A stretch of DNA of 64,000 nucleotides, taken from assembly GCF_000378205.1 (NCBI RefSeq), contig NZ_KB899413.1, positions 1 to 64,000 on the forward strand, written 5' to 3'. The position numbers and the translations under genes are program-made. Within the stretch, counting starts at the first letter, position 1; each line of letters starts with the position of its first letter. The stretch is from Sediminispirochaeta bajacaliforniensis DSM 16054. GTDB lineage: Bacteria; Spirochaetota; Spirochaetia; DSM-16054; Sediminispirochaetaceae. The notes below the pieces were generated by a model. It was not told where the DNA came from and ran no database searches. It saw only the letters and a program-made list of their open reading frames with translations. Shown here one piece after another: positions 35,069 through 51,174 of this stretch.

Positions 35069-35071
35069 GAT

Positions 35072-36523: not shown

Positions 36524-36529
36524 GAAACC

Positions 36530-38809
36530 CTACTCCTCAATAAAATTTGTATAGTGAAGCTTTTTCTGGTCCGCCAGAAATCCCTGCATATATAAAAGAG
36601 AAAGGAGCCAGGCAAGTGTCGATTCGGCTCCCTCGTTCATATTCGGCCCATCCGGGGTAAGTCCGTCCCGGCATCCGCCGGTCGTATAATCATACAGAGG
36701 CTCCTTAAGATCGTTCTGACCGAGGAACCAGTTAAAGGCCATATCGGCGGCGGCTCTGTATCGCTCTTGCCCACTCATGTTGAAGGCAAGGAGGGTCGCC
36801 TCCAGCATTATCTGGGCCTCTATAGGCTGCTGATCAAACCTGGCTTTTTCGCCTTCGGGACGATACCAACCGTTGCTTCCAACCGGAGAAAAGTGATCGT
36901 CCTCTTTCTGAATATCGATGAGCCAATCAAGGCATCGATATCCGGTCTCAAGCATATCCTTTCTATTCATCCACTGTCCGGACAGGAGAAGCGCCTGAGG
37001 GATTTTTCCGCTTGCATAGGTAAGGATATCCCCCTTAAGCCAGGGCCATCCGGAATCGTCATCATGGTCAAAGTGATCAAAGAGCGTGACGGCAAGCTTA
37101 TCCCGTATTCTCCTTACCTCACTATCACCGGAGAATCTGGCTAAGTAGGCATGGATACCGACAAGTGCGAAGGCTATGGCTCTGGGATGTTCAAGGGCCT
37201 CAAGCATACTTATTCCCTTATGAAACAATGTTGTGCTTAATGCAAGGCAGCCCGCTTCCCGAGAGAGGGCCGAACAAACACCAAGGCCCCATAGGGTCCG
37301 TCCCTGACTATCTTCCGCCCCTTTCTCTTCCAACCATTGCCTGTCGTAATCCATAAAATTACGAAACCAGCCGTTTTTTTCGTTATAGGCATAGTTTATA
37401 AAGGAAAGGTATTTTTTCTGCAGCCGAACCAGTTCGGGATCTTCCGGCACAAGATCCTGGGCCATCACCGTGACGATAAGGGCCCTGGCATTGTCGTCGA
37501 TACAATAGCCGAATTGCCGCGAAGGAACGGTAAACTCCGCATGCTGAATCAATCCGGTATCGTCGGTCATGGTCTTAAGATGGCTAAAATCAATCTCAGG
37601 CAGACTTGACTCGTCCTGTTCCAAATTCTTCGTCTTCAAGTAGAAACGTGATTTGCAGGCCCGCTCGGCCTTTACTTCGTTACAGACATTGATATAGTCG
37701 ACAGCAACCTGGCTCCAGACTGCCTTTCTCGAAAAGGTATACGCCTTTTTTCTCATTGTATTGCGCTTGATATCGTCGTCGAGCAAAGAGATCACCTCAT
37801 TCGCCAGCCCCTTCGAGTCCTTAAAATCAACAAGAACTCCCCGGCCTTCGGCAAGCATCTCTTTTGCATACCAGTAAGGAGTTGAAACAGTGGCTTTCCC
37901 GACCCCCATGGCATATGCCAAGGTTCCCGAGACAATTTGGGATTCGGAAAGATAGGGGGTGACATAAATGTCACTGGCAGCCAGGAATTCACATAACTCT
38001 TTAATTTCCACAAAACGATTGAAAAAGATAACATGATCATCAACCCCGCGAAGCCGGGCAAGGCGCTGAAGATTGTGGCGATACTCTTCGCCCGAAGCCT
38101 TTCTGACATGCGGGTGAGTAGCACCTACTACAATGTAGACGGCATCGGGATGTTTCTCGACTACCGCAGGAAGGGCCTTGATCATCGTCTCAATCCCCTT
38201 GTTCGGAGAAAGCAAGCCGAAGGTCAGGATAACCTGCTTTCCTTCCACACCGAACTGATCTTTGTAAAAATTCGGATCGATGAAGGGCATATCAGGTATC
38301 CCATGGTGAATAAAGACAAGCTTCTCCCTGGGAATATGGTAGATATCAGTAAGAAATTCAATGCCTTTTTTCGACATCACCATCAATCGAGAAGATAAGG
38401 CCGCAATCTCGGTAAGAACATCTTTCTGTTTTTTCGAAGGTTTTTCGAGTACAGTATGGAGCGTCGTAACAATAGGCATTCGAAGGTCCCGTAACAGCGA
38501 AATAATATAGCTTCCGGCCTCTCCTCCATAGATCCCGTATTCATGCTGTAGGCAGACCACGTCAATTTGGTTGATATTAAGAAAATCGGCCGCAAGCTTA
38601 TACTCGCCCGCTATGTTCTGATTTATCTCAAAATGGACCTTTTCAGGATAACGGTACCCCTCCGGGATATCGTTAATCGCAACGCTCCAGCAATCAAGCT
38701 CCCCATCAGCCCCGGAGAGCGCGTTTACAAGGTCGGTGCTAAAAGTAGCAATTCCACACTTTCGCGGTAGATAATTACCGATAACTGCAATCGATTTCGT
38801 TCTTTCCAT
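36530..38809 (-). CDS. two-domain protein: GT4 glycosyltransferase plus helical (alpha/alpha)-barrel domain
   Basis: 759 residues. Residues 1-390 form a GT4 glycosyltransferase (NYLPRKCGIATFSTDLVNAL, VCLQHEYGIYGGEAG, LTFGLLSPNKGIETMIKALP, then YLSESQIVSGTLAYAMGVGKATVSTPYWYAKE). Residues about 410-750 are alpha-helical with repeated aromatic/acidic segments (YCIDDNARALIVTVMAQ, GRTLWGLGVCSAL, GWPWLKGDILTYASGKIPQALLLSG, MNEGAESTLAWLLSLL), as in six-hairpin glycosidase-like barrels. GGAGG precedes the ATG. First gene of the glycan cluster. Synthesis and trimming in one chain is possible; which sugar is involved is unknown. Confidence 0.85.
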   Translation of the reverse strand: MERTKSIAVIGNYLPRKCGIATFSTDLVNALSGADGELDCWSVAINDIPEGYRYPEKVHFEINQNIAGEYKLAADFLNINQIDVVCLQHEYGIYGGEAGSYIISLLRDLRMPIVTTLHTVLEKPSKKQKDVLTEIAALSSRLMVMSKKGIEFLTDIYHIPREKLVFIHHGIPDMPFIDPNFYKDQFGVEGKQVILTFGLLSPNKGIETMIKALPAVVEKHPDAVYIVVGATHPHVRKASGEEYRHNLQRLARLRGVDDHVIFFNRFVEIKELCEFLAASDIYVTPYLSESQIVSGTLAYAMGVGKATVSTPYWYAKEMLAEGRGVLVDFKDSKGLANEVISLLDDDIKRNTMRKKAYTFSRKAVWSQVAVDYINVCNEVKAERACKSRFYLKTKNLEQDESSLPEIDFSHLKTMTDDTGLIQHAEFTVPSRQFGYCIDDNARALIVTVMAQDLVPEDPELVRLQKKYLSFINYAYNEKNGWFRNFMDYDRQWLEEKGAEDSQGRTLWGLGVCSALSREAGCLALSTTLFHKGISMLEALEHPRAIAFALVGIHAYLARFSGDSEVRRIRDKLAVTLFDHFDHDDDSGWPWLKGDILTYASGKIPQALLLSGQWMNRKDMLETGYRCLDWLIDIQKEDDHFSPVGSNGWYRPEGEKARFDQQPIEAQIMLEATLLAFNMSGQERYRAAADMAFNWFLGQNDLKEPLYDYTTGGCRDGLTPDGPNMNEGAESTLAWLLSLLYMQGFLADQKKLHYTNFIEE

Positions 38810-39002
38810 TTTGTAATATACCTCCTCCAGAGAAATCCTTTTGCCGAATTCTCATCTCTCTTCTCGAGGTAGAAAATATTTTGCCTCAATATTCACAATA
38901 TAAGCAAAAGTTGTTACAAAAAAAAGAGAAGGAGGATATTATTTGTAAGTTTATGTGATTATGTATAATTAAAAGTAAAACTAATTGTATCAAAGCTCAT
39001 TC

Positions 39003-40055
39003 TTAGTTAAAAATATCTCCTACCAATCGTTTATCACCAAAAAGGGCAGCACAGCCGCCAGTGTGCCAGAAACAAACCTTACTTCCTTTTTTTATTATCC
39101 CTTTTTCAATGTAATCAATCATCCCTGCAACCGCTTTTGCCGTATAGACAGGATCAATAAAAAGGCCTTCATGCTGTGCCAAAAGCTTTATGGCTTGTGT
39201 TGAGATTTCAGAAGGTCTTTCATATGCCTCGCCACAATAGCGTTTGTCAATTGAAATATCTGTAGGCTTACAGGACTGCTCTATACCTAACAAGAATGCA
39301 GTCTGGTTTGCAAGATTGATAATCCTATTACTGAAATCATCGTCGGTTTCCCCAACTGTAAAGCCAACCAGTTTTGTTTCAAGGCCTAATGCCTTTTTTC
39401 CGACTGCAAGGCCCGCCATGGTTCCACCTGACCCAACCGCACAAAAAAGGGAATCAAACGCCTTCCTTCCCATCTGTTGCTCATTTAATTCCATAATCCC
39501 ACGAACAAAGCCGACAGATCCTATGGGAGTCGCACCACCACCAGGAATATCATAGTAAGTAATCGCTTTACTTTTCAGACCCTCTTTGTATTCGTCGGCC
39601 TCTTTATTTCTTCCTTGCTTTGCCTCAGTAATATTTGTATAATCTGAGAGCCTAACAATATGACATTCCGCCCCCAAAAGTCTATCCAATAGATAGTTAC
39701 CGTTGATATTGCTTGAAGAGGATTCGTCGAAATGATCAAGCAAGAATAAAACAGGCTTAAGGCCATAGCGACGACACACTGCTGCTGTTTGCATTGCATG
39801 ATTCGATTGTAGTGCGCCATATGTTATAACTACTTCAGATTTTTTTGACAGTGCATCTGCTAAAAGGAATTCCAACTTTCGTATCTTATTACCACAGAAA
39901 GCATTATATCCTGCAAGATCATCTCGTTTAAAATAAATTTCAACGCCTAACATCTTACTTAGATTTTCCAACTTTTGAAGCGGAGTTGGATAAAATCCAA
40001 TATCGAGTCGACTCAAGCTATTAAAAAGCCCATCAAAAGTATTCATATCACTCAC
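39003..40055 (-). CDS. D-cysteine desulfhydrase / ACC deaminase family PLP enzyme
   Basis: 350 residues. The PLP-binding Lys is in AFCGNKIRKLEFLLADAL (about 52-69); ITYGALQSNHAMQTAA and GSGGTMAGLAVG (phosphate loop) follow. The family covers D-cysteine desulfhydrase (DcyD), 1-aminocyclopropane-1-carboxylate deaminase and L-cysteate lyase; reading by eye cannot separate them. It overlaps the preceding C-S lyase gene by 8 bp and ends an operon with a sugar-type ABC transporter, which favours breakdown of an imported sulfur- or amino-containing compound. A+T-rich like its operon. Confidence 0.85.
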   Translation of the reverse strand: MSDMNTFDGLFNSLSRLDIGFYPTPLQKLENLSKMLGVEIYFKRDDLAGYNAFCGNKIRKLEFLLADALSKKSEVVITYGALQSNHAMQTAAVCRRYGLKPVLFLLDHFDESSSSNINGNYLLDRLLGAECHIVRLSDYTNITEAKQGRNKEADEYKEGLKSKAITYYDIPGGGATPIGSVGFVRGIMELNEQQMGRKAFDSLFCAVGSGGTMAGLAVGKKALGLETKLVGFTVGETDDDFSNRIINLANQTAFLLGIEQSCKPTDISIDKRYCGEAYERPSEISTQAIKLLAQHEGLFIDPVYTAKAVAGMIDYIEKGIIKKGSKVCFWHTGGCAALFGDKRLVGDIFN

Positions 40056-41247
40056 TACGCCCTCCGAGTGAAGCTACTGCATCGTGCAAAGAGCAAAGCC
40101 CTTTTTCGAGGATTGATCTTGGGCATGCAATATTGATACGCATAAACCCACTCCCAGAAGAACCAAACCAATGGCCTGCATCAACAGCGATCTTTGCTTT
40201 CTTAAAGAATAAATCGTCAAGCTCATCATTGGATAGCGCCAATGCCCGACAGTCAATCCACATTAGATATGTTCCTTCTGGTTCAGTCACCTTTAAGATT
40301 GGAATTCGTCGACTTATGTAATCTGACAAGAAAGCAATGTTGGTTTGTAAATATTCCAATAGCTGCTTACGATATTCCTCTCCATGAGTGTATGCCGCTT
40401 CAGTGGCGACTAAGCCAAAACAATTAGGTCCAGCAACATGGTGAATATCTAACATCTCATTATAGCGATCTAATAGATTTTTATTTTTACTTATTATCAC
40501 TGCCGTTTTTAAACCCGCAAGATTAAATGTTTTACTAGGTGATACAAGAGTGACCGTATTATTAGCTATTTCATCAGAAAGTGAAGCAAGGGGAATATGC
40601 CTCCTGCTGCCGAATACAAAATCACAGTGAATCTCATCCGAAAAAATTATAACACCATATTTTTTACAAAGATTCCCAATCGACAAAAGTTCTTCTTTTC
40701 TCCAAACTCGAGATACAGGGTTATGTGGAGAACATAAGATCATCGCCTTCACACTTGGCTCTTTGAGTTTTCTCTCGAGATCGGCAAAATCAATTTCATA
40801 TTTTCCATCATGCTTTTGGCAAAGAGGATTTTCTTCGACTACACGATTATTTTGACGTATTATCCTTGAAAAAGGATAATAGACAGGAGGCTGAATAACG
40901 ATTTTATCTCCAATATTCGTAAAGGCCCGAATCATAATTGTTAAACCTGTCACGACTCCCGGAGAGAAAGAAATCCATTCTTTTAAAAGGAGCCATTTAT
41001 GTTGTGTGGCAAACCACGAGATAACAGCATCAGAAAATGCATCATCACGAAAGACATATCCAAAAATTCCATGTTCAACTCGGGCCTTTAAGGCATCGAT
41101 AACAGGGCGAGGGGAAGAGAAATCCATGTCGGCAACCCAGAAGGGAAGAAGGTCATTACTCCCGAATTTGCCTTGGAGAGAATTCCATTTTAGACTATCA
41201 GTCCCTATGCGGTTTATGATTGCATCAAAATTATATTTCTCGGTCAT
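40048..41247 (-). CDS. PatB/MalY-type C-S beta-lyase (aminotransferase fold I)
   Basis: 399 residues. ATG 41247 is chosen because GAGAGGAG lies 11 bp upstream; the frame extends to 41289. MalY/PatB features are NDLLPFWVADMDFSSPRPVIDAL, CSPHNPVSRVWRKEEL, FSDEIHCDFVFG and the PLP Lys in LVSPSKTFNLAGLKTA. The family splits cystathionine-like thioethers to a thiol, pyruvate and ammonia. It stands in the same operon as a CUT1 transporter and a D-cysteine desulfhydrase-type enzyme. Confidence 0.9.
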   Translation of the reverse strand: MTEKYNFDAIINRIGTDSLKWNSLQGKFGSNDLLPFWVADMDFSSPRPVIDALKARVEHGIFGYVFRDDAFSDAVISWFATQHKWLLLKEWISFSPGVVTGLTIMIRAFTNIGDKIVIQPPVYYPFSRIIRQNNRVVEENPLCQKHDGKYEIDFADLERKLKEPSVKAMILCSPHNPVSRVWRKEELLSIGNLCKKYGVIIFSDEIHCDFVFGSRRHIPLASLSDEIANNTVTLVSPSKTFNLAGLKTAVIISKNKNLLDRYNEMLDIHHVAGPNCFGLVATEAAYTHGEEYRKQLLEYLQTNIAFLSDYISRRIPILKVTEPEGTYLMWIDCRALALSNDELDDLFFKKAKIAVDAGHWFGSSGSGFMRINIACPRSILEKGLCSLHDAVASLGGRSE

Positions 41248-41272
41248 AGTTTTTATAACTCCTCTCGATACC

Positions 41273-42109
41273 TCAACCTTTAACCGCACCAGCTCCCCAG
41301 CCTTTAATTAACGCTTTTTGTGTATAGAGGAAAATGATCAATGAAGGTACACTAACCAAAACACTACCCGTCAAGATAAACTCCCACAATGTATCAAACT
41401 GCCCAATAAAGCCATTTAAACCTACAGGATACGTCATTTTAGCGTCGGTGCTTATCATAACTAAGGCAATGATGTACTCACTCCAAGACAGAGTAAAAGC
41501 ATATACACTGATAGCGACTATACCGGGAACAATAATAGGCAGTACTATAGTGAATAGAGTCCTAAGGCGCCCGGCACCATCGATTGCAGCAGCCTCTTCA
41601 ACTTCTGCCGGAACCGTCATAACAAAAGAACGCAACATCCATAAACAGTAAGGAAGACACAACGCAATATAGGCTAACATCAATCCATATAGAGTGTTTA
41701 CCAATCCAAGTTTCTGGAACCAGAGATACAAGGGAATGATCAATAGAACATTTGGAAGAAAATACGCATATAAAGAGAAGGTCGCTAAAAAATTCCTTCC
41801 GCGGTAGGTAAACCTTGCCAAACTATAGGCACCCATAATTGATATAAGGGTTGTCAATGCTACAACAAACACCGTTACGATAAAACTGTTTAGAACAAAC
41901 ATGCTAAACTGCGTATCAGTGAAAAGGTGAATATAATTCTCAAACGTCCAATGTTTTGGAAGAACTGTCGGAGGTATATTAAAGAATTCCGACTTTGGCC
42001 TCACTGAGCATAAGAAAACCCAAATAATAGGCCCCATAGCAAATAAAACAAAAACAATAATACAAAGATAAAATAAAATTCGCAGTATTCGTTTCTTGGC
42101 TTTCATCAT
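41273..42109 (-). CDS. CUT1-type ABC transporter permease, MalG-like
   Basis: 278 residues, six membrane segments. The EAA loop is VEEAAAIDGAGRLRTLFTIVLPIIVPG, and the N-terminus up to FLCSVRPKSEFFNIPP is typical of MalG/UgpE-type permeases. It overlaps the upstream permease gene by 4 bp. Sugar or glycerophosphodiester import would be the default guess, but the attached PLP enzymes suggest another substrate. Confidence 0.9.
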   Translation of the reverse strand: MMKAKKRILRILFYLCIIVFVLFAMGPIIWVFLCSVRPKSEFFNIPPTVLPKHWTFENYIHLFTDTQFSMFVLNSFIVTVFVVALTTLISIMGAYSLARFTYRGRNFLATFSLYAYFLPNVLLIIPLYLWFQKLGLVNTLYGLMLAYIALCLPYCLWMLRSFVMTVPAEVEEAAAIDGAGRLRTLFTIVLPIIVPGIVAISVYAFTLSWSEYIIALVMISTDAKMTYPVGLNGFIGQFDTLWEFILTGSVLVSVPSLIIFLYTQKALIKGWGAGAVKG

Positions 42110-42993
42110 ACTTCCACCGTCTCATTCATCTTACTAAGTTTCATGTAGAGGAACACAACAATAGAAACAATTGTTGCAATAATTAAGGTAATTGCAGATC
42201 CTCTTCCCAGCTGCATTCCGGTAAAGGCATATTTATAGGCGTAGAGAGGCATAGTTGTAGTTGCAACACCAGGGCCACCACCGGTTAGCATATAAATTTG
42301 ATCAAATTTCTTGAACATGAAAATTATTCGAAGCATGGCAACAACACCAACTACATTTTTTATTGACGGCATAGTAATATACCAAAATGATGTCCAGAAA
42401 TTTGCACCATCCATTTTTGCCGATTCATAGAGTTCTTTTGGAATTGTCTGCAACCCTGCAAGTACATTAATTACAACAAATGGATAATATGACCATATAC
42501 CAATGATAATATTTATTAAAAAAGCCTTAGCAGGTGTTCCCAACCAACTAATAGTATGATCAATTAAGCCAGCACTTATAAGCATAGAATTGATAATTCC
42601 ATAACTCTCATTTAATAACCATCGCCACATCAAAGTAATAGAAATCATTGGCATAAAGAAAGGCAATAGAATAAAAGCCCTCGCTAATCCTCTTCCTCGA
42701 AAATCTTCATTCAAAAAAAGCGCAACTATTATACCAATAACCATCTGTCCAACTACAGTAGTAAATACCCAGATCATACTTAGTTTCGTTGCATTCCAGA
42801 AGTCGGGATCTCGAAATGTTTCAAGATAATTGGCAAATCCCACAAAGTGGCCTTTGATTTCATAAATTAACTGTGAATGGAAGCTTAATTTTATTGCAAA
42901 ACAAAAAGGATAAATGATAAGAGCGGCAAGCGCTATCAATGCTGGTAGCAATAGTAGGATACCCATTCCGTTTTCTTTTTTCGTGTAATGCAA
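42106..42993 (-). CDS. CUT1-type ABC transporter permease, MalF/UgpA-like
   Basis: 295 residues, six membrane segments. The EAA loop is LYESAKMDGANFWTSFWYITMPSIKN and TGGGPGVATTTMPLYAYKYAF follows, the usual MalF/UgpA C-terminal block. TTG 42993 is used because AAAGGAGAA lies just upstream; ATG at codon 10 is the alternative. Partner of the permease encoded next. No ATPase gene is in the operon, so a shared MsmK/UgpC-like ATPase elsewhere is probably needed. Confidence 0.9.
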   Translation of the reverse strand: MHYTKKENGMGILLLLPALIALAALIIYPFCFAIKLSFHSQLIYEIKGHFVGFANYLETFRDPDFWNATKLSMIWVFTTVVGQMVIGIIVALFLNEDFRGRGLARAFILLPFFMPMISITLMWRWLLNESYGIINSMLISAGLIDHTISWLGTPAKAFLINIIIGIWSYYPFVVINVLAGLQTIPKELYESAKMDGANFWTSFWYITMPSIKNVVGVVAMLRIIFMFKKFDQIYMLTGGGPGVATTTMPLYAYKYAFTGMQLGRGSAITLIIATIVSIVVFLYMKLSKMNETVEV

Positions 42994-43068
42994 AGGATTC
43001 TCCTTTATTTTCTGTAAAAAGCAGGGTAACCGTCAAAAGACGATTACTCCCGCATTTTCTCAGTATGC

Positions 43069-44382
43069 TCAATCAATAGAAAACATGCTCCGCCATTCTT
43101 TTGCTATTGTCGTTAGTGCTTCTTCAGGAGTTTTCTGGCCGCTTATTGCCTTGTGCAGTTCATTTGCAAATACAGGGGCAGAAATTGCACGTCCGAAATA
43201 GGGGTTAACAACACCATTATTTCTAAACTGAAAGTCTGTTCCATATTTATAGGCGAGATCCATCGATTTCTTTACAATATTACTCCAGCGTGCGATGGCA
43301 GGATAGTCAAAGTAGTCGTCATTGTTAAGCCAGCCCTGCCGTACAGGTAAGCTATGTCCGGGAACCGCAGCTGTAAGGAATTTATAGTACTGCTTATCAC
43401 TCATATAGAATTCAACAAACTTTTTAGCAGCTTCTACATTCTTTGAATTGCTAAATACAACAAAATCATTAATGGTTGCCTTTACCAATGGTTCTGTAGC
43501 CTTCGGGCCAACAGGGCCTGCCGCAACATCAACCTTATCGTGCAATTCCGGGTTATACCGGTCGATAATAGACATCATTCGTCCAGGGAAACGTACCATT
43601 GCGACAACTCCTTTGGCAAACATAAGGCCAAGATCGCTGGTAGTAACAGTAATTGCTCCCGGTGGACAATATTGTGTCATATCACAAAGGTACTGGAGAG
43701 CCTCAATTGCAATTGGAGAATCAATTGTTACATTATTGTTTTCGTCAAATGCATCACCTCCAAATGCCCACAAAATCTGCAAATAATCGCCACTGACATC
43801 CGATGGTGATAAAGAAATACCTAAACCCCAACGGTCTATCTGGCCATCACCATTGAGGTCTACAGTCAAAGCCTTTGCAGCGTCCTTCCATTCATCCATG
43901 GTCTGTGGAACAGCAATGCCGGCTTCAGTAAATAAATCCTTTCGATAATACAGAATTTTAGACTCGGTTGCAGCAGGAATATCATATATCTTACCATCTT
44001 GCGTCGGAGTCACGAATCTCTGCGGTATATCCCCCAATTCCTTATAAACATCGTCAAGTTCCGCAAGATATCCTTCATCAACTAGCCCTGCAATATATCG
44101 GGGAGAGAGAAAAGCCACATCAGGAGCCGTCCCGGCTCTTAACATTGCAGAAAGTTTTGGCAAGACCTGTTCCAAATCTGCATGGCTCAGAATAACTTTT
44201 ATTCCAGGATTTTCTGCTTCAAAATCACTAATAATCGAGTTGTCCGTTTCAATAGAGGTCGGATCAGTTTCCGGTGTAAGATAAGTAATCTCTACACCCT
44301 TATCCTGCTGTCCCTGACTCCACAGTGATGGTACCATCAAAACACAACACATCAACATTACAATACATGTCCGCTTAATCAT
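43069..44382 (-). CDS. extracellular solute-binding protein, family 1 (CUT1 transporter)
   Basis: 437 residues with a signal peptide (MIKRTCIVMLMCCVLMVPSLWS). ATG 44382 is chosen because AGGGGGAG lies directly upstream. SBP family-1 pattern: SDFEAENPGIKVILSHAD, GTAPDVAFLSPRYIAGLVDEGYLAELDD, YYRKDLFTEAGIAVPQTMDEWKDAAKAL, and FVEFYMSDKQYY near the C-terminus. An EF-hand-like DLNGDGQIDRWG stretch may bind calcium. Binds the unknown substrate of this operon. Confidence 0.9.
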   Translation of the reverse strand: MIKRTCIVMLMCCVLMVPSLWSQGQQDKGVEITYLTPETDPTSIETDNSIISDFEAENPGIKVILSHADLEQVLPKLSAMLRAGTAPDVAFLSPRYIAGLVDEGYLAELDDVYKELGDIPQRFVTPTQDGKIYDIPAATESKILYYRKDLFTEAGIAVPQTMDEWKDAAKALTVDLNGDGQIDRWGLGISLSPSDVSGDYLQILWAFGGDAFDENNNVTIDSPIAIEALQYLCDMTQYCPPGAITVTTSDLGLMFAKGVVAMVRFPGRMMSIIDRYNPELHDKVDVAAGPVGPKATEPLVKATINDFVVFSNSKNVEAAKKFVEFYMSDKQYYKFLTAAVPGHSLPVRQGWLNNDDYFDYPAIARWSNIVKKSMDLAYKYGTDFQFRNNGVVNPYFGRAISAPVFANELHKAISGQKTPEEALTTIAKEWRSMFSID

Positions 44383-44414
44383 AAGCTCCCCCTTCAATCT
44401 TTATATTTCTACAA

Positions 44415-44428
44415 ACGAAAGCTTTTGT
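44415..44428 (-). promoter_or_regulatory. palindrome upstream of the CUT1 operon
   Basis: ACGAAAG-CTTTTGT, symmetric but for one pair, 33 bp upstream of the binding-protein ATG. Just beyond it, AGGCAG-TCTTG-CTGCCT (44430-44446) forms a hairpin that may end the pdxA transcript, though no T-run follows on that strand. LacI- or GntR-type operator form; no cognate regulator gene is in the operon. Confidence 0.35.
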
Positions 44429-44480
44429 GAGGCAGTCTTGCTGCCTAGGAAAATCCTTTTTTCATATGCCCTCCCCTCCT

Positions 44481-45512
44481 CTATTTTCCTTTTGTCGCCA
44501 GCAGCGCACCGTAATGAATGGCTTCAATCATGCTTTGCGGATTCGCGGTGCCCTTACCGGCCTTTCCAAATGCCGTCCCATGATCCACGGAGCTTCGAAC
44601 AATTGGCAGACCGAGCGTTATATTTACTCCGCTGACAGCATCCCATTTTCCGGTATTGTTATCATATTTAAATCCAGTCAATTTTAGGGGGATATGGCCT
44701 TGATCGTGGTACATCACGACAACAACATCGTACTGACCGGCCAGTGCCTTTGAAAAAACCGTATCCGGGGGCAAAGGACCTGACACATTCAGCCCTTCTG
44801 CGCCTGCCTGCTTAATTGCAGGGATGATTTCTTTCATCTCTTCATCGCCGAACATGCCGTTTTCACCGGCATGAGGATTTAGCCCGGCCACAGCAATGTT
44901 CGGCTCATCAAAACCAAGCTGCACAAGCGCACCATGCGCCAGTCTGATGACTTCAAGGACCCTATCTTTTTTGACAAGATCACAGGCCTTGCGCAGCGAT
45001 ACGTGGGTCGATACATGTACCACACGAAGTGGATCATGAATGAGCATCATCGCGTAATGCTTTGTCTTGGTCTTCTCTGCAAATATTTCCGTATGCCCGC
45101 TATAGTGGAACCCCGCGCGATTAATAGAATCCTTATTTATTGGAGTGGTGATGACACCGGCAACCTTTTTTTCAAGCGAGAGATCGATTGCCTTGTCAAT
45201 GGATTCAAAGGCCGCCTTCCCGGAGCTCGCCAACACCTTGCCGAAAACAAGGGTATCCATATCTACATTGTTCAGTTCCAGATACTCAATCGTTCCGTAT
45301 GCTCCAACCGCCTCGAGGGGATCTTCCAACCTCTTAAGCTTCAACGGCGATGCAACCATGTTGATGGCATGCTTCAATACCGCGCCATCGGCAACGACAA
45401 CGGGAATACACTCCGCATAAACCTTCTTTTCCGACAGGGCCTTGACGATTATCTCCGGACCGATACCAGATGGATCTCCCATCGTCAGGGCAAGTCTTGG
45501 CAACTCCTTCAT
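44481..45512 (-). CDS. pdxA2: PdxA2-type 4-phospho-threonate/erythronate dehydrogenase
   Basis: 343 residues of the PdxA family: LTMGDPSGIGPEIIVKAL at the N-terminus and metal-binding His in HYSGHTEIFA and MYHDQGHIPLKL. True PdxA serves vitamin B6 synthesis, but PdxA2 paralogues beside DUF1537 kinases oxidise and decarboxylate 4-phospho-D-threonate or -erythronate to dihydroxyacetone phosphate. The DUF1537 gene two places upstream supports PdxA2. Last gene of the sigma-54-linked operon. Confidence 0.88.
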   Translation of the reverse strand: MKELPRLALTMGDPSGIGPEIIVKALSEKKVYAECIPVVVADGAVLKHAINMVASPLKLKRLEDPLEAVGAYGTIEYLELNNVDMDTLVFGKVLASSGKAAFESIDKAIDLSLEKKVAGVITTPINKDSINRAGFHYSGHTEIFAEKTKTKHYAMMLIHDPLRVVHVSTHVSLRKACDLVKKDRVLEVIRLAHGALVQLGFDEPNIAVAGLNPHAGENGMFGDEEMKEIIPAIKQAGAEGLNVSGPLPPDTVFSKALAGQYDVVVVMYHDQGHIPLKLTGFKYDNNTGKWDAVSGVNITLGLPIVRSSVDHGTAFGKAGKGTANPQSMIEAIHYGALLATKGK

Positions 45513-45529
45513 TACGTAAACATCTCCTT

Positions 45530-46684
45530 TTATTGTATCTGTTCGTAGATCGACCGTATTTGCGCCTTTGTCATGGGCTTTGCATTGTTATCGAGTAAAC
45601 GCTTTGTTTCGATCGCACCCTCAACCAAATCATCGATATCCTGATGTTTGATACCGAAATGTACCAGATTAGTGGGGATTTTCAGCTCGGAAACAAATCC
45701 ATAGATCCATTCGATAAGTGACGTCACCGTTTCATCGATGCTCTGTTTTTTCTCAAGCCCAAAATAGGGAACCGCTTCGTAAAGTTTTTCGTTTACCGCA
45801 TCTTTATTAAAGTCAATGACAGGAGCCAATAGCATGGCGTTCGCCACTCCGTGCGGAATGTGAAAAAGGGCACCCATAGGATAGGAAAGAGCATGTACCG
45901 CCGTAGTTCCCGAAAGGGTAATGCACATCCCGGCATAGAATGAGGCAAAAAGCAAATCCGTTCTGGCATCCACATCCTGTCCATTGGCAAATACCTTTTT
46001 CAGGCTTCGGCTTATTCGTTTTATTGCTTCCAGGGCAAGGAGGTCGCTAAGCGGTGTCGCCTTACGGGAAGTATAGCATTCCAATGCATGAGCCAATGCA
46101 TCAAGACCCGTAGATGCAGTTACCTGTGGCGGTAACGACAACGTCAATTCGGGATCGAGAATGACATAGTCGGGAAGAAGTTCGCTACTTATCACCGCCG
46201 CCTTCATTTTCTTTTCTGGCAGAGCAAAAATCGCATTCTTTGTAGCTTCAGAACCGGTTCCCGCCGTTGTGGGAATAAGACATGTTGGGGTGGACCGATG
46301 GAGAGCCTGGGCCGAATCGATAACAGCATCAAGTGTCTCCCCTGTTTTCAATAAGCATCCTAAGATTTTTGCCGTATCGAGAACCGATCCTCCACCCACA
46401 CCGATAATAACGCCGCATGCGTGTTTCCGGCATTCCTCAATGATGGAATTCGCATTCTGTACATTGGGTTCCCGTTCCACACTATCAACGACAAACACCG
46501 ACCATCCTGCGGTGGAAAGATTATGGATAATCGAATCGCTAAGCCCTGCAGCTCTGACTCCTTTATCGGTAAGCAGGATCGCATCCTTTTCCTTTATACC
46601 GGAAAGCATCTCATCCAGTTGAGCAATGCTCCCTGCACCGGCCTTCACCAGACCGGGTGTTTCAAGGGTAAATTGTTGTATCAT
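45530..46684 (-). CDS. iron-containing alcohol dehydrogenase
   Basis: 384 residues, NAD(P)-dependent. Group III ADH signature: GVGGGSVLDTAKILG (cofactor), IPTTAGTGSEATKNAIF, and the metal site with Asp/His in GLDALAHALECY and HIPHGVANAMLLAP. The family covers 1,3-propanediol, lactaldehyde, 4-hydroxybutyrate and phosphonate-related dehydrogenases. It overlaps the kinase gene by 23 bp and lies before pdxA2, so it should handle an alcohol or aldehyde made in the acid-sugar route; substrate unknown. Confidence 0.9.
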   Translation of the reverse strand: MIQQFTLETPGLVKAGAGSIAQLDEMLSGIKEKDAILLTDKGVRAAGLSDSIIHNLSTAGWSVFVVDSVEREPNVQNANSIIEECRKHACGVIIGVGGGSVLDTAKILGCLLKTGETLDAVIDSAQALHRSTPTCLIPTTAGTGSEATKNAIFALPEKKMKAAVISSELLPDYVILDPELTLSLPPQVTASTGLDALAHALECYTSRKATPLSDLLALEAIKRISRSLKKVFANGQDVDARTDLLFASFYAGMCITLSGTTAVHALSYPMGALFHIPHGVANAMLLAPVIDFNKDAVNEKLYEAVPYFGLEKKQSIDETVTSLIEWIYGFVSELKIPTNLVHFGIKHQDIDDLVEGAIETKRLLDNNAKPMTKAQIRSIYEQIQ

Positions 46685-47987
46685 AAGAATCTCCTACATT
46701 CACTTTTCCGCCGTATCGAAGAAAATCGATAACTTTCTCAAACGTATCAATTTCTCCAAACCCTCCGGCTTTCGTTATCATATATATGGGTTCACTAAGA
46801 TCAGGAGATGAGAGCTGGCAAAGCGGGATTCCCGGTAAGATCTCTTTCTTTAGACTTATTGACGAGGCATGAAGCTTTCTCACAATATTAAAGGCCGTAT
46901 CGCCACCTGTGGCAAATAAGGTCCTGATATTACAATGCAGAAGAACCTGCTTTACTATCTCGCCAATGCAATCAGCAACTTCTTCCCCAATATCCTTTAC
47001 GGCACTTCGAGCCACCTCATCGTTATCTTCACGATGGTTCTTGTTTCTCTCCCTGACTGTTTTTAATAAGATATGCGTTGAATCATCATCGATCGCCATA
47101 ATGCCTGCTACGGCACTCGAAATAGCTTCTTCTCTGTTCCTTATTATCGTTTCGACATCGATATCGATCTGGCGAACGTGACGCCCATTCGCCAGAAGAT
47201 GCTGAACCTGCTCCGACGACACCTGCTTGATACTGCCGACTGCAAAGAGAACCCTCGGTGAGATGAGAAAAGACTTTTTCACGGACTCTGTTTTTTTCTC
47301 AGCCAGAACTTTCCCTAAGCCTGAAGAACCGACAAACAATCTTTGTGCCCTCATAATGGAAGCAACATGTACAATTCGTGTTATATGTGCAGGCTCAAGA
47401 GCATCAAAAACAATTATCTTATTACCGGCTTTTCTTTCATGTTCCAAAGCGTGAATAAGATTCTCATCAGAAGCCTGAATAGTGCGAAAGGTTATTAAAC
47501 CAACTTTACGCTTTGTTTGCTGCGATATGATATCGGGAACAAAGGAACTATCAACCGGTGCAAACGGATCTTTTCCAAATTCCGATAGATGAAGCTTTAT
47601 TCCATGTATGTAGCACATGCCGTCTTTAACAATCCGGCCGTTCTCAGGAGCGGCCGGAACAACAAACGCCTCGGAATATCCACAGGCATCCATCAAAGCA
47701 TCAATCTCAGATCCCACATTCCCACGCAGTGTCGAATCAATCTTTTTTACAACGTTGTCTTTCGTTCTATCACCAAGAAGCTCAATTGTATGAAAGACCT
47801 TATCATATGCCTCTCTTGCCTTTAGATGCCTGGATTCCGTATCAATGATAAGAACAGGGACATTCAGGTAATCCTTTCCAAGTGGAGGATGGGGCTGAAT
47901 CAACACAACAGGGTCAATATCGCCATCAATGAATTGTATTCCGGTGTCATTTGCACCGGTAAAATCATCCGCAATGATCGTAAACAT
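46662..47987 (-). CDS. four-carbon acid-sugar kinase family protein (DUF1537)
   Basis: 441 residues. MFTIIADDFTGANDTGIQF is the DUF1537 N-terminal signature; KKIDSTLRGNVGSEIDAL and VVPAAPENGR follow. The C-terminal nucleotide-binding domain has LFATGGDTAFNIVRKL and GIPLCQLSSPDLSEPIYMITKAGGFGE. Characterised members phosphorylate D-threonate, D-erythronate or 3-oxo-tetronate. GGAGG lies 11 bp before the ATG. Second gene of the operon after the DapA-like gene. Confidence 0.92.
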   Translation of the reverse strand: MFTIIADDFTGANDTGIQFIDGDIDPVVLIQPHPPLGKDYLNVPVLIIDTESRHLKAREAYDKVFHTIELLGDRTKDNVVKKIDSTLRGNVGSEIDALMDACGYSEAFVVPAAPENGRIVKDGMCYIHGIKLHLSEFGKDPFAPVDSSFVPDIISQQTKRKVGLITFRTIQASDENLIHALEHERKAGNKIIVFDALEPAHITRIVHVASIMRAQRLFVGSSGLGKVLAEKKTESVKKSFLISPRVLFAVGSIKQVSSEQVQHLLANGRHVRQIDIDVETIIRNREEAISSAVAGIMAIDDDSTHILLKTVRERNKNHREDNDEVARSAVKDIGEEVADCIGEIVKQVLLHCNIRTLFATGGDTAFNIVRKLHASSISLKKEILPGIPLCQLSSPDLSEPIYMITKAGGFGEIDTFEKVIDFLRYGGKVNVGDSYDTTIYP

Positions 47988-48027
47988 GAGTAGTGATGCC
48001 TCCGGGATACCGCTTTATGGATTGCTG

Positions 48028-48978
48028 CTATTTGACGGTCAGACCGGTCTTAATCATCAATTCTTTCAGCTTCTTCCGTTCTTCTTCATTCGGACGAACG
48101 AATGGAAGCCGTTCATGGTCTCCCATTGGCCTTCCGGCTATTCGGGCCATCTCTTTTCCATACGCCGAAGACTTATACATATCACCGGCGAAGATATAGG
48201 CGTACAAATCAAGATACCGCTCCCACAGCTCCTGACATCTGGCAAAATCTCCACTTCTGTCTACCTCATCGATCTCCAGAGCCGCTTTGGGATCGTAATT
48301 CGCGGTAAAGTGATTGTGTCCCACGATTCCAAACTGATAATCAAGCGGCATCAAAGAACGGTAGGTATTCCCATTCAGCGTAAAGCGTTTTCCAAAATCA
48401 CGTGCAACCTGTCTGAGCTTTCTCACATCGGAGGTCGTCTCTTTGAGGGCAACGATATGATCGATGGTCGCCAATCGGCCGATACACTCCAGCGACATAT
48501 CCTTACCGGTAACCAAGGGATTGTTATAAACCATGATCCCAATCTCGGTGGCATCGGCAATAGCTTTAAAATGACGATAGACAATGTCGTCAGTGGGATT
48601 GGGATAATAGAACGGCGCAAGGACCATGATGGCATCGGCACCGGCAGCTTCTGCATACTTTGCAAGCTTGATTACCTGAGAGGTACCCGGCCTTACACAG
48701 CCGACAACGATGGGTACTTCCCCCTTGGCTTCTTCAACAACAATATTGATCAGCTTCTCATACTCGGCATCGGACAGAGAAAACCCTTCCCCATTCGAGC
48801 CTGCGATAACCTGAATGCCTTTTCCGGTAACCAAGCCTCCCTCTATCATAAATCGAGTATTTTCTCGAAGTGCCTTTTCATCGATTTCGGTATCGGATGA
48901 AAATGGAGTAAGTTGGATGTTGATGACTCCCCTCAAAAGCGGCTTCACCTCGCTGCGCGAAAGACCTTTTCTTCCCAT
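48028..48978 (-). CDS. DapA/NAL-superfamily Schiff-base aldolase or dehydratase
   Basis: 316 residues, TIM barrel. The Schiff-base Lys is K179 (HIVALKETTSD), the catalytic Tyr is Y151 (IMVYNNP), and GSNGEGFSLSDAEYEKLI is the family's GxxGE motif. ATG 48978 is used since AAGGAGAG lies 9 bp upstream; the open frame continues to 49056 through the promoter. The family includes dihydrodipicolinate synthase, sialate lyase and keto-deoxy sugar-acid aldolases/dehydratases. First gene after a sigma-54 promoter, so a catabolic role on a sugar acid is likelier than lysine synthesis. Confidence 0.88.
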   Translation of the reverse strand: MGRKGLSRSEVKPLLRGVINIQLTPFSSDTEIDEKALRENTRFMIEGGLVTGKGIQVIAGSNGEGFSLSDAEYEKLINIVVEEAKGEVPIVVGCVRPGTSQVIKLAKYAEAAGADAIMVLAPFYYPNPTDDIVYRHFKAIADATEIGIMVYNNPLVTGKDMSLECIGRLATIDHIVALKETTSDVRKLRQVARDFGKRFTLNGNTYRSLMPLDYQFGIVGHNHFTANYDPKAALEIDEVDRSGDFARCQELWERYLDLYAYIFAGDMYKSSAYGKEMARIAGRPMGDHERLPFVRPNEEERKKLKELMIKTGLTVK

Positions 48979-49023
48979 TCTAAAACTCTCCTTCTCGTAT
49001 AGATTTCTTTCATACCGGTATCT

Positions 49024-49039
49024 GCAGGATACGTGCCAA
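49024..49039 (-). promoter_or_regulatory. sigma-54 promoter of the acid-sugar operon
   Basis: On the minus strand TTGGCAC-GTATC-CTGC shows -24 GG and -12 GC with exactly 10 bases between. It lies 46 bp upstream of the DapA-like ATG, giving a start site near 49012. The divergent gene encodes a sigma-54 activator. Confidence 0.8.
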
Positions 49040-49131
49040 GAAATCACAATAAGCATAATTTATTATTACATATAGAAATATGAACTGATCTGAATGGTTA
49101 TTCTTTTTTTAAATAAAACCGGACCGGCTCA

Positions 49132-49155
49132 TTTTGCACCACCACTGATGCAAAA
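49132..49155. promoter_or_regulatory. inverted repeat, probable activator site (UAS)
   Basis: TTTTGCA (49132-49138), 10-bp spacer, TGCAAAA (49149-49155), a perfect match. It lies about 130 bp upstream of the predicted sigma-54 start site, a usual distance for enhancer-binding proteins, and within the intergenic region shared with the PrpR-type activator. Confidence 0.6.
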
Positions 49156-49156
49156 C

Positions 49157-49187
49157 CCATCATCTCCACACACTTTGAAGATGATGG
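49157..49187. promoter_or_regulatory. second inverted repeat in the activator intergenic region
   Basis: CCATCATCT (49157-49165) and AGATGATGG (49179-49187) are perfect 9-bp arms with a 13-bp spacer, one base after the first inverted repeat. It could be a second binding site or, if transcribed, a hairpin in the activator mRNA leader. Confidence 0.5.
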
Positions 49188-49236
49188 CCACGCTTTTATT
49201 GTTGACAGATGTGATATTTCAGTTTCTCATTATTGT

Positions 49237-51126
49237 ATGAGTCTTTTAGTAATTGCTCCCTATCCTGATTTGTTGCAGCAAGCGCAGGAGGTTGCGGCGC
49301 AGCACAGTTCGGAGATTATCGTTGTACAAGGTGATCTTGAGAATGGGCTTAAGCGGGCGATGCAGATCACGGAGTCCCACGATATCGATTTAATCATAAG
49401 CAGAGGAGGAACGGCTTCCCTCCTAAAAAAACAATTAAACAAGATTGTCATTGAAATACGAGTGACAGGTTATGATCTTTTACGTGCCATATATCCACAT
49501 TTTATTGCAAATAAACGTATTGCCTTAGTTGGCTACGAGAATATTATCTACGGGGTACGAAGCATAAGCGATATTCTCGATGCCTATCTGGGAATTTTCA
49601 CCATCACACAATCGATAGATGTCGAAAGTGTCATAGAGAAAGCAATCCGATGGGGCACCGATATTATCATCGGTGATGCTGTCTCCATTGGTCTCGGCCG
49701 AAAAAAAGGGATTGAAGTACAGCTCATAAAATCCGGAAAGGAAGCAATCGAAAATGCCGTCCAAGAAGCTTTGCAGCTACGGGAGCAAATGATCGAAAAA
49801 ATTGCGACCTTGCAACGTATGGACTCCATCATTGAACATTCCGAAAATGGTATCATCTATATTGATTCCAATCGTGAAATCAAGCAGGTCAATAGTGTTG
49901 CGACCAAGTGTCTTCAGAAAAGTGCGGAGCAGCTGTTGAACAAGAAGATCGATCAGACCTGCCTGCATGAAACAATCAAACAGTGTCTTTCACAGAGGAA
50001 TAGCGGTGACAAGGGAACCGTTGTCAAACTTGGAGCAAAGACCGCCTACATAGAAACTGTAGGGCTCCAAGTAGGAGACAAAAATGAGGGAACCATCGCC
50101 TTCATCCAAGACATTGGTAAGATTCAGAAACTTGAGGCTCAAATCAGAAGGGAATTATCAAATAAGGGACTGAGAGCTCACTATTCCTTCGATAAGATGA
50201 TTACAAGTGACCCAGCAAACAAGCTGATCATCGAAAAGGCAAAACAATACAGCCTTACTGATTCAACGATTCTCTTGTTAGGGGAAACAGGGACGGGGAA
50301 AGAGTTTTTTGCGCAAAGCATCCATAATTTTTCTCCGAGGAAAAACGGCCCTTTTGTTGCTGTCAATTGTGCGGCTCTGCCTGATACGCTTCTGGAAAGT
50401 GAATTGTTCGGCTATACCGAAGGTGCTTTTACCGGGGCCAACAAGGGAGGGAAACAGGGACTCTTTGAGATGGCACACCTTGGAACCATTTTCTTGGATG
50501 AGATAAACGAAATGAACATACAACTTCAAGCTCGTTTTCTCCGGGTCTTGCAGGAAAAAGAGATTATGCGAGTCGGAGATAATAAGGTCATCAGCGTAGA
50601 CGTCCGGGTGATTGCCGCATCAAATAAAAATCTTTACAAAGAGGTCATATCCGGAAAGTTCCGAAGCGATCTTTATTATCGGATAAAAGTTCTCGACATC
50701 GGGGTATTGGCATTGCGAGATAAGCCCCAAGACATCTATCCGCTTTTTAAATACTTCATCCATCACTTTTCCGAAAAATATGGATATACGCTCCCTCACT
50801 TTCCTAAAGATTTTACAGACCAGTTAACGTTATATCCGTGGCCAGGCAATATACGAGAATTAAAAAATTTCAGTGAAAAATTTGTCATCCTTTCCTCGGT
50901 TAACAATTCACCACAGAAGCTTGTTGATGAGTTGTTTGTACATGATGAATCTCTCAAAAACAGCAGTACCGAAACAGGCGCAAAGGATTTAAAGGCCGTC
51001 GAACAGGATTATATACAGTCGGTTCTCGAGCGGGTCAATTATAACATGAGTAAAGCAGCAGCCATCCTTGGCATAAACCGAAGTACGCTGAGGCGGAGAC
51101 TCAATGAGGACAGCGAGAGGGAATAA
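49237..51126 (+). CDS. sigma-54-dependent activator with PrpR N-terminal sensor
   Basis: 629 residues. A PrpR_N-type sensor domain (about 5-185; DLIISRGGTASLLKKQLNKIVIEIRVTGYDLLRAI) is followed by a PAS domain (about 195-305). The AAA+ sigma-54 domain (about 325-555) has Walker A GETGTGKE at 349-356 and GAFTGA near 398-403, needed to contact sigma-54. A Fis-type HTH closes it (MSKAAAILGINRSTLRRRL, 604-622). No clear ribosome-binding site precedes the ATG. Divergent from the acid-sugar operon and convergent with the ribose-type ABC operon; it most likely drives the promoter at 49024-49039. Confidence 0.93.
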   Translation: MSLLVIAPYPDLLQQAQEVAAQHSSEIIVVQGDLENGLKRAMQITESHDIDLIISRGGTASLLKKQLNKIVIEIRVTGYDLLRAIYPHFIANKRIALVGYENIIYGVRSISDILDAYLGIFTITQSIDVESVIEKAIRWGTDIIIGDAVSIGLGRKKGIEVQLIKSGKEAIENAVQEALQLREQMIEKIATLQRMDSIIEHSENGIIYIDSNREIKQVNSVATKCLQKSAEQLLNKKIDQTCLHETIKQCLSQRNSGDKGTVVKLGAKTAYIETVGLQVGDKNEGTIAFIQDIGKIQKLEAQIRRELSNKGLRAHYSFDKMITSDPANKLIIEKAKQYSLTDSTILLLGETGTGKEFFAQSIHNFSPRKNGPFVAVNCAALPDTLLESELFGYTEGAFTGANKGGKQGLFEMAHLGTIFLDEINEMNIQLQARFLRVLQEKEIMRVGDNKVISVDVRVIAASNKNLYKEVISGKFRSDLYYRIKVLDIGVLALRDKPQDIYPLFKYFIHHFSEKYGYTLPHFPKDFTDQLTLYPWPGNIRELKNFSEKFVILSSVNNSPQKLVDELFVHDESLKNSSTETGAKDLKAVEQDYIQSVLERVNYNMSKAAAILGINRSTLRRRLNEDSERE

Positions 51127-51144
51127 TGGCTACGCGTAAAGATG

Positions 51145-51174
51145 ACAAAGGGGGCCTTTTTAGGCCCCCTTTGT
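51145..51174. terminator. bidirectional terminator after the activator gene
   Basis: A 12-bp perfect stem (ACAAAGGGGGCC, 51145-51156, with GGCCCCCTTTGT, 51163-51174) and a 6-nt loop between two convergent genes. It serves the activator and the ribose-type ABC operon. Confidence 0.9.

Follow-up and report, generated by a model that had tools for sequence, protein, structure and literature searches.

The four adjacent genes at 44481–48978 of the 64,000 nt stretch of Sediminispirochaeta bajacaliforniensis DNA analysed here (the window) are probably a variant of a four-enzyme cassette that is widespread among bacteria and degrades a 2-keto-3-deoxy C7 diacid, most likely Dha (3-deoxy-D-lyxo-2-heptulosarate). 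The broader proposition, a new, phylum-spanning Dha pathway with entire divergent versions exchanged between sister species at a single chromosomal slot, is about evenly balanced. Dha is among the rarest plant sugars, and the pectin rhamnogalacturonan-II (RG-II) is its sole site in land plants; it also occurs in the scales of marine prasinophytes and in the theca of Tetraselmis. Enzymes that free sugars from this polysaccharide have been described, but a literature search found no published account of Dha catabolism by bacteria after its release from RG-II.

The four open reading frames had been read from the sequence as DapA-like, DUF1537 kinase, iron alcohol dehydrogenase and PdxA2 genes, and this reading held: they are intact, neighbouring and on the minus strand (Table 1). 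The gaps between them (+40 bp for dapA-kinase, −23 bp for kinase-Fe-ADH, and +17 bp for Fe-ADH-pdxA) indicate a single operon, in which the kinase gene and pdxA are separated only by the Fe-ADH gene. The operon is larger than first noted, and continues beyond pdxA with genes for a solute-binding protein, two permeases, a PatB-type protein and a desulfhydrase-like protein (44397–39003).

Table 1. Features of the dapA operon and its control region in the window.
Feature	Position	Strand	Remarks
DapA/NanA-family Schiff-base aldolase	48028..48978	-	First gene; PF00701, 184 bits; Lys179/Tyr151; GSNGE motif; AlphaFold model
DUF1537 four-carbon acid sugar kinase	46662..47987	-	PF07005/PF17042; best NCBIfam model D-threonate kinase
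Iron-containing alcohol dehydrogenase (Fe-ADH)	45530..46684	-	PF00465/PF25137; conserved metal ligands
PdxA/PdxA2-type decarboxylating dehydrogenase	44481..45512	-	PF04166, 356 bits; sole genomic copy
ABC transporter solute-binding protein (SBP_bac_1), sugar-type	43069..44397	-	83 bp past pdxA; presumed substrate uptake
ABC permease 1 (MalF/UgpA type)	42106..42993	-	Domain match
ABC permease 2 (MalG/UgpE type)	41273..42109	-	Domain match
PatB-family C-S lyase	40048..41289	-	TIGR04350, 482 bits, over cut-off
D-cysteine desulfhydrase/ACC deaminase-like PLP enzyme	39003..40055	-	TIGR01275, 290 bits, at cut-off
PrpR_N-PAS-AAA+-Fis sigma-54-dependent activator	49237..51126	+	PF06506, PF00158, PF02954; divergent from dapA
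Sigma-54 (−24/−12) promoter TGGCACGTATCCTGCA	49023..49038	-	45 bp before dapA ATG
Inverted repeat, 12-bp arms	49157..49187	-	Between regulator and promoter; candidate enhancer site of activator

All four genes were found together at 40 loci in Spirochaetota, Bacillota, Bacteroidota, Synergistota, Pseudomonadota and Ignavibacteriota; the order of the genes, the transporter and the DapA subfamily vary among them. In the proposed route, the DapA/NanA-type aldolase would split open-chain Dha into pyruvate and D-threuronate, a C4 semialdehyde acid, which the Fe-ADH would reduce to D-threonate with NAD(P)H. The DUF1537 kinase would then act as a D-threonate 4-kinase, and PdxA would oxidise the resulting 4-phospho-D-threonate at C3 and decarboxylate it to DHAP, CO2 and NADH. 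The net conversion would be Dha + ATP to pyruvate + DHAP + CO2 + ADP; by calculation the formula balances and the route is redox-neutral, and the stereochemistry of Dha, derived by hand, yields exactly D-threonate. The reactions, their order, the substrate and the role of the transporter are all predicted from sequence comparison, and the comparative evidence favours the earlier suggestion that the DapA-like enzyme would make the first cut in a longer acid sugar. For the window locus, the order of the enzymes and the substrate are assigned more weakly, given its lone DapA type, the absence from its genome of the pectin and sialidase families tested, and two unexplained PLP enzymes.

The route would do for a C7 acid what the glucarate/galactarate pathway (GarL, GarR, GarK) does for C6 acids, with the lower half of D-threonate catabolism joined on. 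Both would use a 2-keto-3-deoxy-aldarate aldolase, a semialdehyde-acid reductase and a kinase to give pyruvate and a phosphorylated C3 compound, but the route suggested here is longer by one carbon, has an additional decarboxylating step, and uses unrelated enzyme families (DapA for GarL, Fe-ADH for GarR, and DUF1537 for GarK). If correct, it would assign a definite function in bacteria of gut, soil and sea to four weakly annotated protein families (DHDPS family, iron-containing ADH, PdxA, four-carbon acid sugar kinase).

The first enzyme belongs to the DapA/NanA Schiff-base aldolase superfamily, as it has the DHDPS fold (AlphaFold model pLDDT 86; Z 38 to DHDPS structures), the Schiff-base lysine and the catalytic tyrosine; the fold search confirmed the superfamily only. 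It does not qualify as a biosynthetic DapA (DHDPS), as the protein scores 153 bits against the dapA equivalog cut-off of 206 and reads YNNPLVTG where DHDPS reads YNxPxRTG, so that the carboxylate-binding Arg is absent; a stronger PF00701 copy (321 bits) lies elsewhere in the genome, at C4:71240. The window protein is not close to the other cassette DapAs: against an HMM of these it scored 153 bits, which does not exceed the 156–216 of its own-genome paralogues. At least three DapA types are found among the other cassettes, so a shared DapA subfamily is not a strict criterion for membership, and the window protein is a separate type, lying outside the groups of other cassettes in the DapA tree on a long branch of unsure placement. 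Single-protein genome scans returned no close relatives of the window DapA or kinase, and plasmid searches gave distant matches only.

The kinase (SBD_N 197 bits, NBD_C 102 bits) lies in a clade of five sequences with 98% support, four of which are cassette kinases; its top NCBIfam model is D-threonate kinase (291 bits, under the cut-off of 450), which is the best-scoring model for kinases from three lineages. Apionate was rejected as a substrate, since the match of the window kinase to OiaK, of the apionate branch of DUF1537, reaches 65 bits, versus 291 for D-threonate kinase. The Fe-ADH ligands D195, H199, H264 and H278 are at least 95% conserved across 49 homologues, and this Asp/His×3 metal site places the protein among the Fe-dependent alcohol dehydrogenases. 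Its NCBIfam neighbours are aldehyde reductases, some of them acting on acid-bearing substrates (SarD, 4-hydroxybutyrate DH), all below cut-off. PdxA retains H170, H214 and H269, is 52–58% identical to cassette PdxAs, and carries the 11-aa insert before GVN that is found in 43 of 46 PdxAs from ADH-bearing loci. It scored 333 bits against the D-threonate 4-phosphate dehydrogenase model (cut-off 583); with both it and the kinase below their equivalog cut-offs, the locus is not classed as a plain D-threonate pathway. In NCBIfam, neither the window DapA, ADH and kinase nor most cassette members tested passed the threshold of a model that would name their function.

The clues to Dha come from neighbouring genes in other genomes. 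BT_1020-type propellers (E 1e-231 to 5MQR) adjoin the cassette in Larkinella, Pedobacter, Bacteroidales and Prevotellaceae, with GH127, GH78 and GH106 added at the Larkinella and Pedobacter loci. The two-domain BT_1020 protein (GH143/GH142) is named beta-L-arabinobiosidase in the PDB; we take its propeller half to be the Dha hydrolase, GH143, a family acting on RG-II, a role reportedly established by Ndeh et al. in 2017. The propeller was present in 19/19 cassette-bearing Bacteroidota/Ignavibacteria genomes versus 10/295 random Bacteroidia and, once kinases in the random sample had been checked, in 20/20 cassette-bearing versus 8/293 other genomes (p 2e-25); cassette kinases in Bacteroidota were traced by alignment, a PF17042 count being too insensitive for them. 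In the opposite direction, of the 10 random-sample Bacteroidia with BT_1020, only 2 had a cassette kinase. No propeller was found among the Bacillota and spirochaete cassette genomes searched, and the link is confined to Bacteroidota/Ignavibacteria.

Among 80 PdxA loci picked without regard to neighbours, a sialidase-family protein occurred at 15 of 38 loci with Fe-ADH versus 0 of 42 without it; the predicted model of such a neighbour matches GH33 sialidases (Z 37), and Dha would be a candidate substrate for this uncharacterised family. At five loci a DUF386/YhcH-type anomerase gene lies beside the cassette, and a studied member of that family opens cyclic 2-keto-3-deoxy acids, feeding a DapA-family aldolase (PMC8141875). 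Sialidase-fold, DUF386 and DapA/NanA genes, which share loci in other phyla, are features of sialic acid catabolism too, but no NanK/NanE-type genes were noted at these loci, where the aldehyde would pass instead to Fe-ADH, DUF1537 kinase and PdxA. Sialic acid was rejected as the substrate because NanA products require NanK/NanE-type steps rather than a threonate kinase and PdxA, and Kdo because its aldol cleavage gives arabinose, for which the other three enzymes are not needed.

The window locus lacks the sialidase-like and DUF386 genes and any BT_1020-type hydrolase, and the described work on RG-II degradation concerns depolymerisation. A BNR_2 sialidase-fold ketosidase, linked or elsewhere in the genome, accompanies several Bacillota, Bacteroidota and spirochaete cassettes but is absent for the window; a profile search of its genome, in which PF24067 was not separately covered, found no BNR_2, GH88/105 or GH106, so free Dha would need to be scavenged. 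These absences, the separate DapA type, the different transporter and kinase scores that point just partly to D-threonate kinase would all suit a different substrate for the same enzyme logic, at least in the window spirochaete: another 2-keto-3-deoxy acid giving a C4 semialdehyde acid, such as a heptulosarate stereoisomer or derivative. This is unlikely, though it is the strongest of the alternatives. For kinase, Fe-ADH and PdxA, the window and the BT_1020-linked cassettes clearly share their protein families, and Dha, whose stereochemistry suits D-threonate, is to our knowledge the natural heptarate of this kind.

D-threonate and D-erythronate catabolism by DtnK or DenK kinase and PdxA2 is said to have been described by Zhang et al. 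(PNAS) in 2016. It shares with the cassette the DUF1537 kinase and the PdxA-type decarboxylating dehydrogenase leading to DHAP and CO2, but not the upstream aldolase and Fe-ADH, nor the extra loop of most cassette PdxAs. That the operon reduces to this pathway, the DapA and Fe-ADH genes being dispensable or having no link to it, is strongly disfavoured and quite improbable. A kinase does accompany PdxA at 24 of the 42 loci lacking Fe-ADH, and the pair matches the described D-threonate route. However, in the same sample DapA was present at 33/38 Fe-ADH loci versus 3/42 others (Fisher 9e-14, the loci not being independent), Fe-ADH, DapA and kinase co-occur strongly across phyla, and the PdxA insert is usual where Fe-ADH is present. 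The DapA subfamilies differ, yet the slot is always filled by a DapA, which argues for a needed activity, and the window locus, with its kinase, Fe-ADH, PdxA and DapA-family gene, fits the wider cassette definition. In S. smaragdinae the same chromosomal slot, with flanks 95–96% identical, holds divergent content (12.2 kb versus 11.8 kb), and the two species share only the regulator, kinase, ADH, PdxA and DapA there. The gene association is well supported by sequence comparison, and DapA and Fe-ADH are more than passengers in it. The sequence-only reading had regarded them as additions to the kinase-PdxA2 core and had named their dispensability as the refuting outcome; the neighbourhood comparison and the congener slot both contradict that outcome.

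The patB gene overlaps permease 2 by 17 bp and the desulfhydrase-like gene by 8 bp, and all are probably co-transcribed. Together with an Fe-ADH score near that of the sulfoacetaldehyde reductase SarD, this raises a cysteine or sulfur conjugate as substrate, from which the two PLP enzymes would free pyruvate, ammonia and thiol while the core four handle the sugar-acid part. Such a role is very improbable: neither PLP gene has a homologue at 20 spirochaete comparison loci, both are grouped with the transporter outside the core, and no sulfur enzyme was noted elsewhere among the cassettes. The desulfhydrase-like protein scored 291 bits against the CuyA model in NCBIfam, under the cut-off of 450. 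Action of the kinase and PdxA on 4-hydroxy-L-threonine, in relation to vitamin B6, is extremely improbable; the genome has a single PdxA, and such activity has been shown for some DUF1537/PdxA2 pairs, recycling of 4-hydroxythreonine being on record for certain DUF1537 kinases (Thiaville 2016, cited in PMC9997740), but the operon is a catabolic one that includes a transporter, an aldolase and an ADH under sigma-54 control, and B6 synthesis gives no reason for DapA or ADH.

The −24/−12 promoter ahead of dapA is the sole match within the 64 kb (0.07 expected) and adjoins the gene for the AAA+ activator, the arrangement of a sigma-54-dependent operon. The divergent PrpR-type protein is presumed to be the regulator, and would turn on the operon through this promoter, with the inverted repeat as its candidate enhancer site. 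PrpR-type regulator genes repeatedly adjoin cassettes in other genomes.

The four genes that the sequence-only reading had grouped (DapA-like enzyme, DUF1537 kinase, iron-dependent alcohol dehydrogenase (Fe-ADH) and PdxA) were confirmed, and the gaps between them, in the order dapA, kinase, adh, pdxA, are small (+40, -23 and +17 bp), which marks them as a single operon. Catalytic residues are retained in DapA (K179, Y151), ADH (D195/H199/H264/H278) and PdxA (H170/H214/H269). The window DapA, kinase and ADH reach no NCBIfam cut-off.

Features of the operon and its surroundings
Feature	Position	Strand	Remarks
DapA-like gene	48978-48028	minus	intact, expected domains
DUF1537 kinase gene	47987-46662	minus	intact, expected domains
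Fe-ADH gene	46684-45530	minus	intact, expected domains
PdxA gene	45512-44481	minus	intact, expected domains
ABC transporter genes	44397-41273		downstream of pdxA
PatB C-S lyase and D-cysteine-desulfhydrase-like genes	39003-41289		after ABC transporter
PrpR_N-PAS-sigma-54 activator gene	49237-51126		divergent from operon
-24/-12 promoter match TGGCACGTATCCTGCA	49038-49023		45 bp upstream of dapA ATG
Inverted repeat, 12-bp arms	49187-49157		between promoter match and regulator gene; candidate enhancer site

The promoter match TGGCACGTATCCTGCA is the only one of the -24/-12 type in the 64 kb (0.07 expected), and its position suggests that the divergent activator controls the operon through it. 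The PatB-type and D-cysteine-desulfhydrase/CuyA-like genes overlap one another and a permease gene; the spirochaete loci used for comparison showed no homologue of either PLP gene. A GH130 phosphorylase gene between two glycosyltransferase-family genes adjoins the operon (34055-38809).

Neighbourhoods of up to 20 kb around spirochaete relatives of the kinase repeat the set regulator-kinase-ADH-PdxA-DapA with varying transporters (Opp-type ABC, TAXI TRAP, DctP TRAP). A scan with a PdxA alignment gave 80 PdxA loci, one genome per species, chosen regardless of neighbours. DapA occurs in 33 of the 38 loci with Fe-ADH versus 3 of the 42 without, and the kinase in 37/38 versus 24/42, p-values being indicative only as the loci are non-independent samples. 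All four genes occur together in 40 loci, the window included. Gene order (kin-ADH-PdxA-DapA, kin-ADH-DapA-PdxA, ADH-DapA-PdxA-kin, kin-PdxA-DapA-ADH), kinase lineages and DapA subfamilies all vary, suggesting that the association was kept or rebuilt repeatedly. In one spirochaete locus (L055:9565-12158) a DUF1537 kinase adjoins a LarA-type racemase, possibly for C2 epimerisation of a tetronate ahead of phosphorylation, and a TRAP transporter.

In Sediminispirochaeta smaragdinae, identity to the window across the two flanks of the locus is 95.6% (5.1 kb) and 94.9% (434 bp), but between them 12.2 kb (38932-51146) is exchanged for 11.8 kb (L048 7297-19063) almost without DNA similarity. By sequence, this is an exchange of the whole slot between congeners: the cassette is kept, in divergent form, and its transporter is a different one. 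The slots share only the regulator (37% identity), kinase (29%), ADH (41%), PdxA (58%) and DapA (31%), which argues that what counts is this five-gene core, the PLP genes being accessory. The window slot adds the ABC transporter, PatB and desulfhydrase-like genes; that of S. smaragdinae adds TRAP, D-2-hydroxyacid dehydrogenase and amidohydrolase-like genes, all three read by eye.

Three kinds of neighbouring gene, recurrent in other phyla, point to 3-deoxy-D-lyxo-heptulosarate (Dha), a seven-carbon acid sugar, as substrate. A BNR_2 protein is encoded in 15/38 Fe-ADH loci and 0/42 others, and is likely a ketosidase of a 2-keto-3-deoxy acid, since its AlphaFold model (pLDDT 87) matches GH33 sialidases (Z 37, 22% identity). 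These cassette-adjoining proteins (L116:14764-15948, L086:6605-7765, L109:18175-19335 and others) are uncharacterised and of about 385 aa; a signal peptide is apparently present in Bacteroidota members, with none obvious in those of Bacillota. Five loci carry a DUF386/YhcH gene, and YhcH acts ahead of NanA, opening the rings of Neu5Ac and KDN (PMC8141875). Shortly upstream of ADH in Larkinella is a BT_1020-type propeller matching PDB 5MQR (E 1e-231) over residues 24-612, the N-terminal half; the family also occurs in three other loci (L082, L108, L119). We take this half of BT1020 to be the GH143 Dha hydrolase, as Ndeh et al. reportedly found in 2017. The propeller family (PF24067) is present in 19/19 cassette-bearing Bacteroidota/Ignavibacteria genomes versus 10/295 random Bacteroidia; two of those 295 carry the cassette kinase, both PF24067-positive; pooled, the counts are 20/20 cassette-bearing versus 8/293 others (p 2e-25, for phylogenetically non-independent genomes). 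GH127, GH78 and GH106 also lie within the Larkinella and Pedobacter loci. Eight of the ten BT_1020-bearing genomes of the random sample have no cassette kinase, and would therefore use another Dha route or none. At L132:749-6552, DUF6298 and DUF3826 proteins, possibly new enzymes for rhamnogalacturonan-II (RG-II), adjoin a BT_1020-type hydrolase and the cassette.

In the proposed scheme, retro-aldol cleavage of the C3-C4 bond of Dha would yield pyruvate and OHC-CHOH-CHOH-COOH. Drawn as a Fischer projection, Dha has C5 on the left and C6 on the right; once the aldehyde is reduced and the drawing turned by 180 degrees, C2 would lie left and C3 right, i.e., D-threonate (derived by hand from nomenclature), the substrate that names the best-scoring kinase family. 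Each of the four enzymes would take one step; the computed formulae balance, the reductase hydrogen being regained at the PdxA step. The GarL-GarR-GarK route is parallel and one carbon shorter. The earlier proposal that the DapA-like enzyme first cleaves a longer acid sugar is supported, and is made specific with Dha as the proposed sugar. No description of the gene set, of Dha catabolism or of threonate with an aldolase was found in the open-licence literature, where absence is not proof. Our verdict is a new pathway assembled from known families, with the Dha pathway rather probable for the cassette family and somewhat less so for the window's own member.

Against models built without the window, its kinase (354 bits), ADH (453) and PdxA (524) fit the cassette families by sequence. 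Its DapA, which at 153 bits scores no better than its own paralogues, is thus of a separate type. The closest neighbour of this DapA in the tree, at 30% identity and with weak placement, is the one at L099, which likewise lies close to a kinase and PdxA. The 4.57 Mb genome encodes no BNR_2, GH88/105 or GH106, so the organism probably differs from typical RG-II degraders. Marine prasinophyte scales and Tetraselmis contain Dha too, a source that suits a halophilic genus, and the organism may take up free Dha. The second DUF1537 kinase of this genome (L062 8000-18100, G000:C12) has neighbours that, read by eye, resemble class II aldolase and tripartite tricarboxylate transporter genes, together with a PrpR-type regulator, an arrangement like that of the known OtnK-OtnC threonate/erythronate route. 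Elsewhere in this genome, an aminotransferase-like gene and an ABC sugar transporter come after a further DapA-family gene (L065 5431-10713, G000:C15).
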